From Gammaproteobacteria bacterium (GTDB lineage: Bacteria > Pseudomonadota > Gammaproteobacteria > Ga0077554 > Ga007554): 64,000 nt of DNA. Position 1 is the first letter of the stretch, and every line of letters starts with the position of its first letter. Shown here piece after piece: positions 40,292 through 42,220 of the stretch. The position numbers and the translations under genes were made by a program. The stretch lies in contig JACPOZ010000006.1 of NCBI GenBank assembly GCA_016191235.1, forward strand, positions 1 through 64,000. The letters run 5' to 3'. The notes beneath the pieces are model-generated. The model searched no databases. It had not been told where the DNA came from and worked only from the letters and a program-made list of their open reading frames with translations.

Positions 40292-41338
40292 ATGTTTACT
40301 AAAGGGTTGGTTGCCGTCGCGTTGATCTGCGCATCCGCGTTCTCCATGGCGGGCGAGGCTGTCGCACATAAACATGCCCATGGAAAGAAATCCACCGTTA
40401 TTGCAACGGCTCATAAATCCGTCGTCAAAAAGGTGGCGGTCAAAGTTGTAAAACGCAAGCACGTCCGTCACGCTAAGTCTGACATCAGGCATGTCGCGCG
40501 GGTCAAGCATGCGCGGAAGGCGAGCTCGCACAGATATGCGGTTGCGCGCAGTGATGACGGGAGTTTGGTGCTGATGTCATCCATGGCACTGGTGGTCAGC
40601 CAGGAGGACGAGAAAACAATTTACGCCAAGCATTCTGACGTAAGAAGCCCAATCGCCTCGCTCACCAAACTGATGACGGCGATGGTTGTTCTTGACGCGA
40701 ATCTACCCATGAATGAGCCACTGATGGTCACCGGGGATGATGTCGACATGCTGCGGGGATCGAGCTCCAGATTGCCGGTTGACTCCGTGCTCAGCCGTGA
40801 AGACATGTTGCATCTGGCGCTGATGGCCTCGGAAAACCGCGCCGCATCCGCGCTTTCACGTGCCTACCCCGGTGGCCGCCACGCATTCGTCGAGGCCATG
40901 AACCGTAAGGCGCGCGAGATCGGGATGACGCAAAGCCGCTTTATCGACTCCACCGGTTTACATGCCGAGAACAGTGCCACCGCGCAGGATCTGGTCAAAA
41001 TGGTCAAGGCCTCTTACCAGTATCCGCTAATCCGCCGCTTCAGCACCTCCGAATCCTACGACGTGGCGCTCAACGAGCGCTCTCTTCCCGTGCATTTCAG
41101 AAACACCAATGCCCTGATAAAGAACGTCGGCTGGGATATTGGCCTGAGCAAGACGGGATATATCAACGAAGCGGGGCGCTGCCTGGTAATGCAGGCGCGG
41201 ATAGCGCAGCAACCGGTGATTATCGTGCTGCTCGATTCACAAGGTGCCTATACGCGTATTGGTGATGCCAATCGCGTGAAGAAATGGATAGAAACCAAGG
41301 CGCTGCGCGCATCGAGCAGGACGGCGAAGTTTGGCTGA
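40292..41338 (+). CDS. D-alanyl-D-alanine endopeptidase (PBP7-like)
   Basis: RSPIASLTKLMTAMVVLD (SxxK), SENRAAS (SxN), LSKTGYINEAGRCLVM (KTG). Confidence 0.92.
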   Translation: MFTKGLVAVALICASAFSMAGEAVAHKHAHGKKSTVIATAHKSVVKKVAVKVVKRKHVRHAKSDIRHVARVKHARKASSHRYAVARSDDGSLVLMSSMALVVSQEDEKTIYAKHSDVRSPIASLTKLMTAMVVLDANLPMNEPLMVTGDDVDMLRGSSSRLPVDSVLSREDMLHLALMASENRAASALSRAYPGGRHAFVEAMNRKAREIGMTQSRFIDSTGLHAENSATAQDLVKMVKASYQYPLIRRFSTSESYDVALNERSLPVHFRNTNALIKNVGWDIGLSKTGYINEAGRCLVMQARIAQQPVIIVLLDSQGAYTRIGDANRVKKWIETKALRASSRTAKFG

Positions 41339-41345
41339 CCGCATG

Positions 41346-41617
41346 CTAGTGCCGTGTCACAGGGGTTTTGACGCCTGCTGAGCCTCTGAGCGGGCCGGGG
41401 GTTAGGCGCGCCGACGAAGGCATAGCCTGACGCTATGTCGAGGAGGCGCAACAACGCTCCCGGCCCGCTCAGAGGCTCCCTCCGGGCGGCGCTGGAAAAC
41501 GCTGTGGCGGTGTTGCCGCCCCTTGACGTGGGACCCGCCACGCCAGCGGGGCGGCGCCTTGCCACAGCGTTTTGCAGCGCCGCAGCAGGCGTCAAAACCC
41601 CTGTGACACGGCACTAG
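41346..41617. repeat. 272-bp cloverleaf-forming palindromic element between convergent genes
   Basis: Perfect 35-bp outer inverted repeat 41346-41380/41583-41617; arm 1 perfect 20-bp stem 41380-41399/41459-41478; arm 2 20/21-bp stem 41488-41508/41561-41581; further hairpins within both arms. Confidence 0.93.
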
Positions 41618-41632
41618 GCCCTTACGCCATTT

Positions 41633-42220
41633 TCAGGTTAATGCGCTGAGCAGTTGACGCAGGGCTTGCCCGCGATGGCTCAAGCGGTTTTTCACCTCTG
41701 GCGCAAGTTCCGCGCCGGAGCAATTCCGCCGCGGCACGAGGAACACTGGATCGTAACCAAAGCCATGGGTGCCGCGCGGCGTGAACAGAATGCTTCCTTC
41801 CCAGGTGCCCTGGCAAATGATCGGGGTGGGGTCGAGGGCGTGCCGCATGTAAACCATAAAGCATTGGAAGCGTGCCGAACGTTGAGGCTCTGGGACATCG
41901 GCAAGATCGGCAAGCAGCTTTTCCAGATTGGCGCGGTCATCGGCACCCGGCCCTGCATATCGCGCCGAATAGATGCCGGGTGCGCCATTGAGGGCGTCCA
42001 CCTCAAGCCCGGAATCATCGGCGATGGCAGGCAGGCCGGTGTGCTGTGCTGCGTTACGCGCCTTGAGGATGGCGTTCTCCACGAAGGTCAGGCCCGTCTC
42101 TTCTATTTCCGGGACGCCGAACGCCGACTGGGGCAGCACTTCGATATAATGCCCCGCCAGCATTTCGCTGATTTCACGGGCCTTGCCTGCGTTGTTGCTG
42201 GCCAGCACAATGCGCTTCAT
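41633..42220 (-). CDS. rdgB: XTP/dITP diphosphatase
   Basis: IVLASNNAGKAREISEML; TGLPAIADDSGLEVDALNGAPGIYSARYAG; GTHGFGYDPVFLVP. Confidence 0.96.
   Translation of the reverse strand: MKRIVLASNNAGKAREISEMLAGHYIEVLPQSAFGVPEIEETGLTFVENAILKARNAAQHTGLPAIADDSGLEVDALNGAPGIYSARYAGPGADDRANLEKLLADLADVPEPQRSARFQCFMVYMRHALDPTPIICQGTWEGSILFTPRGTHGFGYDPVFLVPRRNCSGAELAPEVKNRLSHRGQALRQLLSALT

Follow-up and report, generated by a model that had tools for sequence, protein, structure and literature searches.

The element described here lies in a 64,000-nucleotide stretch of a gammaproteobacterial contig, the whole of which we refer to as the window. The initial annotation had placed a palindrome between two convergent genes, and the ORF coordinates agree with this position. 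The features of the locus are as follows:

40292–41338, + strand: flanking gene, an ORF putatively encoding a D-Ala-D-Ala endopeptidase-like protein (dac; name taken from the initial annotation), which also adjoins rdgB in congeners; outside the element
41346–41617, no strand: whole element, 272 bp counting one CTAG per end, supported by a profile search of relatives and by the equally long homologue in congener G001
41346–41349, no strand: left CTAG, the target site, of which TA (or all four bases) is duplicated on insertion, as judged from empty sites, a filled/empty pair and a tally of flanks
41346–41380, + strand: left terminal inverted repeat, forming the outer stem (35 bp)
41380–41478, no strand: left hairpin arm, with a perfect 20-bp base and an inner hairpin (alignment helices 2–5)
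41479–41485, no strand: junction linker CCTCCGG, inside the conserved GGCTCCCTNCGGGCG
41486–41582, no strand: right hairpin arm, inverse homologue of the left arm (alignment helices 7–10)
41583–41617, − strand: right terminal inverted repeat, forming the outer stem (35 bp)
41614–41617, no strand: right CTAG, the other copy of the target, on the same basis as the left one
41633–42220, − strand: flanking gene, a putative rdgB-like ORF (name likewise from the initial annotation) whose orthologues occur in all 8 family genomes; outside the element

A palindrome with a perfect outer stem, two independent arms and a three-way junction had been proposed for this site, and we confirmed this architecture from the inverted repeats and by folding. 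Reading of the sequence showed that the outer stem (41346–41380 with 41583–41617) is complementary at 35 of 35 positions and the base of the left arm (41380–41399 with 41459–41478) at 20 of 20. At the base of the right arm, GGCGCTGGAAAACGCTGTGGC and GCCACAGCGTTTTGCAGCGCC, within 41486–41531 and 41538–41583, pair at 20 of 21. Folded as DNA, the 272-bp element reached −135 kcal/mol, compared with −64.3 ± 3.8 for shuffled sequences (z = −18.5; 0 of 200 shuffles), and RNA folding of the − strand gave −220 kcal/mol (z = −18.6). The predicted fold is a three-way junction, or a four-way one if the 2-bp CC/GG mini-hairpin of the linker is counted. The element is 66% identical to its own reverse complement: its right arm is related to the left one as a diverged inverse copy, which makes the whole roughly two-fold symmetric. 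Coding capacity is absent, as the only ORF listed over the element (115 aa, − strand) extends out into dac.

The element is mobile and inserts at TA

The assembly to which the window belongs has 2.1 Mb and is 79% complete, and it contains a single copy of the element. The initial annotation had treated a single copy, held at the same locus in relatives, as the pattern speaking against mobility; the first half of that pattern applies to the home assembly, and the second does not apply to the relatives. In the congeners G001, G002 and G003, the gap between dac and rdgB is short and lacks the element, and the simplest reading is therefore that it came to this site after the congeners split. The intergenic sequence of G003 after GGCTGAC aligns, without a difference in length, with that of the window minus the element and one CTAG, with a single CTGG standing where the window has CTAG-element-CTAG. 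G001 carries one homologue of exactly 272 bp at an unrelated locus, with a perfect 35-bp outer stem whose sequence is unlike that of the window copy. In the family member G005 we found solo ends and short remnants, the ends resembling those of the window copy.

Recent amplification was seen in G281, a Ca. Thiodiazotropha symbiont, where the terminal repeat had 132 matches genome-wide and the reversed control none. Stretches fetched from this genome contained 37 complete copies with different flanks, of which 27 measured exactly 268 bp and differed on average at 3.6 positions. Several copies sit in the CTAG that ends another copy of the family. Chimeras, in which the left half belongs to one subfamily and the right half to another (L289, L290, L297 and L302), were observed, and one-arm deletions and solo ends also occur. 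A 295-bp variant (the first copy of L267, L287, L295 and others) has a 27-nt hairpin, CACCCCAAGGGCACTTCCTTCGGGGCG, inserted into its right arm. This insert defines a second amplified form, and decayed copies show similar short inserts at other places.

G281 also provided a filled/empty pair of two IS200-like copies (C38 and C23), which read ACATTCCTAG[element]CTAGCACC and ACATTCCTAGCACC, respectively, and are 100% identical over 237 bp across the joined site. This was the one perfect empty site seen, in addition to the less exact one in G003 at the window locus. At L314/L362 and L363/L365 in this genome, family elements adjoin or interrupt IS200-like copies, and one of these pairs is the perfect empty site. 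Taken together, the empty congener sites, the G001 homologue at another locus, the dozens of near-identical copies in G281 and its perfect empty site bear out the mobility that the perfect arms had been thought to suggest.

To define the target, we tallied the flanks of 94 informative elements, after excluding 29 of 123 rows that were anchored on a TA within the element's own end (GTAC, GTAG etc.). CTAG stood on both sides in 68 of the 94, which fits duplication of either TA or four bases. Another 21 varied in the outer base alone, fitting duplication of TA only, and four had matching tetranucleotides other than CTAG (CTAA, TTAG and CTAT), fitting a 4-bp, YTAR-like duplication; three of these four are young G281 copies. 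Insertion is thus precise at TA in a preferred CTAG, with at least TA, and perhaps all four bases, possibly YTAR, being duplicated.

The family is patchily distributed across Proteobacteria

A class-wide scan for the junction GGCTCCCTNCGGGCG revealed genomes with 36, 24 and 9 matches, compared with 0–4 for the reversed control. When the genome collection was scanned for CAGAGCC...GGCTCCCTNCGGGCG, at least 116 loci were found in Gamma-, Beta- and Zetaproteobacteria, and the carriers among the matches listed included Thioalkalivibrio, Thiodiazotropha, Thiohalobacter, Thiosymbion, Thiococcus, Microbulbifer, Giesbergeria, Sulfurimicrobium, a zetaproteobacterium and others. The strict CAGAGCC...GGCTCCCTNCGGGCG pattern matched 2 of 399 genomes sampled across the phylum (control, 0), and the family is therefore patchy. 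Copies are dispersed and multiple at the level of the family as well as within G090, G279 and G281. Length is nearly constant, since 95 of 103 extracted elements measure 263–275 bp. At L030 (G220:C251, 12–379) the palindrome reaches far past the family boundary (about 368–390 bp), as if a copy were nested in another inverted repeat.

No match to the element was found in plasmid and phage collections. Viral contigs gave a single match (L206, 1196–1306, in the IMG/VR contig IMGVR_UViG_3300045141_000138), which could reflect either a host-derived contig or a virus with the element. An Rfam search returned no match above the gathering score, the sub-threshold ones being mostly eukaryotic miRNA models, and the junction and end sequences were absent from the open papers covered by a text search, with subscription literature and ISfinder beyond its reach. 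The family has no counterpart in Rfam or in the open literature searched.

Fold and junction are conserved while the ends turn over

An alignment of 40 divergent copies (283 columns) contained 27 invariant positions, the junction accounting for about half of these, and GCTCCCT-N-CGGGCG was invariant in 40 of 40. RNAalifold predicted 101 pairs on this alignment, with double-sided change in 86, and in left-arm helices 2–5 double-sided change affected 30 of 36 pairs. In a count test on the same alignment, 95.1% of cells were paired, compared with 68.4% after shuffling and 34–42% after sliding. Double-sided cells numbered 1018, compared with 275 ± 14 in shuffled and about 200 (at most 212) in slid controls; as the structure was derived from the same alignment, the slid control is somewhat flattering, and the margin far exceeds that effect. 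Fold, length and junction thus persist from class to class, and turnover is seen in the terminal repeats.

In the 55 divergent copies compared for the outer stem, Watson-Crick pairing reached 89–100% at the outermost ~23 pairs, with the first pair, which belongs to the target site, at 82%; five pairs inside these outermost ~23 were weaker (73–84%), and the pairs at the junction were stronger again. Mismatches in the outer stem were G.T in 41 cases and A.C in 41. This equality points to selection on matched DNA ends rather than on the helix of one RNA strand. The left arm showed an excess of G.T and the right arm none after one invariant column was set aside, so that the arms carry no consistent strand signal.

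Search for a mobilising enzyme

Pattern searches for paired ends at IS spacing identified no autonomous element sharing the family's ends in G279, G281 or G090, and the solo ends that were read adjoin host genes or decayed copies, with no autonomous IS. Likewise, a class-wide scan of 369 genomes for the TAGTGTCCTGTCACACGTCTAATG end type, which several families have in common, yielded no autonomous IS; all pairs were spaced as in this family or in its deletion products. The IS630-type DDE_3 domain (Pfam) was absent from the carriers G031, G090, G213, G279, G280 and G283, two of which (G090 and G279) are high-copy genomes, and with the domain missing from six carriers we rejected an IS630 partner acting through DDE_3. 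The DDE_3 source may have been lost from carriers.

Y1_Tnp proteins were present in 12 of 12 genomes searched, including carriers without IS630 domains, and also in 5 of 14 control genomes and in G003, where no element was found. An nhmmer search around about 40 Y1 loci detected full elements near Y1 genes only in the copy-rich G281. A Y1_Tnp/RAYT partner was rejected as well, since its genes occur in all carriers searched and yet no elements adjoin them outside G281. Possible movers include an enzyme lost after the burst, a family beyond DDE_3 and Y1_Tnp (e.g. rve or DDE_Tnp_1) and a reader of folded DNA.

Interpretation and alternative explanations

We consider it very probable that the palindrome is a MITE-like, non-autonomous DNA transposon and that it belongs to an undescribed family whose members measure about 270 bp. 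The element belongs with bacterial MITEs by anatomy and behaviour: it is short and non-coding, has terminal inverted repeats and dispersed copies, and shows a target-site duplication together with an empty site. Another general feature of MITEs, ends in common with an autonomous IS, was not found in G279, G281 or G090. To our knowledge, many described MITEs lack a known parent, and the loose definition of a MITE therefore still applies. Counting against the transposon explanation are internal structural conservation of a strength not expected for ordinary MITEs, the failure to find an autonomous element with these ends in G279, G281 or G090 or, for one end type, in 369 genomes, the absence from six carriers of the IS630-type domain that TA/CTAG targets would predict, and the fact that a single perfect empty site was seen.

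In the mechanism that we propose, a transposase provided in trans would bind both ~25-bp terminal repeats, cut there and join the ends to CTAG. The two ends would change together because both must suit one enzyme, and their joint change would leave outer stems that are perfect and yet lineage-specific in sequence. The paired bulged hairpins and the fixed junction would be needed for transposition, either as folded DNA or by bending and pairing the two ends, because nothing else would keep a gene-less core constant across classes. We infer that the element is mobilised in trans, and the window copy has probably inserted selfishly into an intergenic gap that tolerates it. A stronger version, which we regard as doubtful, is that selection acts on the element as a folded DNA object and that its mover reads the three-way junction and the bulged hairpins, in a cruciform or single strand, and not the sequence of the ends; terminal sequences would then be free to drift, with fold, length and junction bases staying fixed across classes.

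Movement could also depend on structure if an HUH/Y1 enzyme (REP-associated, TnpA-like) or a similar one read the folded single strand in the way suggested for REPINs (PMC3116915, PMC3733652), with CTAG as the foot tetranucleotide. Such a route would agree with the presence of Y1_Tnp in all 12 genomes searched, carriers without IS630 domains included, with the strong covariation of hairpin arms that have conserved bulges, and with a CTAG at each end and a single one in the empty site, as for insertion beside a tetranucleotide. However, Y1 genes are common, being found in controls and in G003 too, and the loci read had nearby elements only in the copy-rich genome; moreover, TA is constant while the outer bases of CTAG vary, and the outer stem has no strand preference, which together make this route rather unlikely. 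A structured non-coding or regulatory RNA would account for the deep covariation, the invariant junction nucleotides and the very stable RNA fold, but the duplicated target site at the ends, the copies at unrelated loci, the lack of a credible Rfam family and of any promoter-like site, and the equal G.T and A.C counts in the outer stem, with inconsistent arms favouring no single RNA strand, render it very improbable.

The initial annotation had further suggested active homogenisation, and perfect stems might indeed be kept by mutation if template-switching between the arms during replication corrected them, a process that could operate in addition to transposition. Stems are perfect though their sequence differs among lineages, and the young copies fall into two groups, distinguished by a single linked change that is two-sided (positions 73 and 92). 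Most differences among young copies are, by contrast, one-sided and uncorrected, the weaker stretch inside the outermost 23 pairs suits end recognition better than uniform correction, and invariant unpaired bases are left unexplained; homogenisation is thus possible and unproven, and as the cause of the perfect stems we judge it quite unlikely. The terminator activity envisaged for the palindrome found no support. Although the window copy lies between convergent genes, as a bidirectional terminator for dac and rdgB would, there is no terminator-like site, congeners do without it at dac-rdgB, and by crude ORF calling the neighbours of related copies are convergent in 14 cases, tandem in 26 and divergent in 15, with no preference for convergent genes, so that this explanation is extremely improbable.

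Comparison with known repeats

Among short, gene-less, hairpin-forming and TA-flanked repeats, ERIC, Correia/NEMIS and RUP are the closest in kind; most have no proven mover, and for most such elements no IS parent was found or none was looked for (PMC2229807). The element resembles ERIC/IRU in being gene-less, hairpin-forming, intergenic and TA-ended (PMC2229807). By description, ERIC/RU-1 differs in having about 127 bp and 7-bp repeats and in being enterobacterial (PMC2229807), compared with about 270 bp and ~35-bp repeats here, and in the three-way junction and fixed junction motif of our element. Correia/NEMIS and RUP share with it non-coding sequence, terminal inverted repeats and a TA target, but RUP has ends in common with IS630-Spn1 (PMC2229807), whereas for our element no same-ended IS was found and six carriers lack DDE_3. 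IS630 inserts at TA with a preference for 5′-CTAG-3′ and duplicates TA (Tenzen et al 1990, 1991, cited in PMC2170065). Our element likewise enters at TA, mostly within CTAG, and duplicates at least TA; unlike IS630, it has no transposase gene, and four copies suggest a 4-bp duplication (CTAA, TTAG and CTAT on both sides) instead of TA alone.

REP/REPIN sequences with their RAYT (PMC3116915, PMC3733652) are likewise palindromic and dispersed, lack an autonomous element with matching ends and occur, as here, in carriers with Y1_Tnp. Our element differs in lacking the GTAG/CGTC tag at the hairpin foot, its ends being CTAG with variable outer bases, in being far longer, in duplicating TA, and in showing no association with Y1 genes and, over about 40 Y1 loci, no repeat-flanked RAYT. 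Hairpin MITEs without an identified parent IS are also known from a large sulfur bacterium, Thiomargarita; their direct repeats are reported to be TATAG or 10 bp long, a description that sets our element apart (PMC4853749). The element differs from known bacterial MITEs in its internal three-way junction shared between classes, in the turnover of its ends and in its near-constant length.

The family indicates that parts of a MITE besides the ends can be under strong constraint, here in a gene-less element with one fold of about 100 base pairs. This constraint spans Gamma-, Beta- and Zetaproteobacteria, with 27 invariant bases, a near-constant length and recent bursts of copies. It raises a testable question, namely which enzyme moves the element and whether that enzyme reads shape or sequence, for which the natural subfamilies, chimeras and one-arm deletions offer test material. 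As a caution, such elements break short-read assemblies, and covariation screens could mistake them for non-coding RNAs.

Other repeats in the symbiont genome

The flanks of several G281 copies (L267, L268, L277 and L305) are themselves repeated (GGCCTGTTAACACTAA..., GTGACATCACCCCTAAGTCAGG...), which suggests that further, unnamed repeat families exist in this genome. At L292 (G281:C8), near position 1992 on the − strand, a truncated copy adjoins another structured repeat, which starts GAGACATCACCTACGAATTTTCGTAG.
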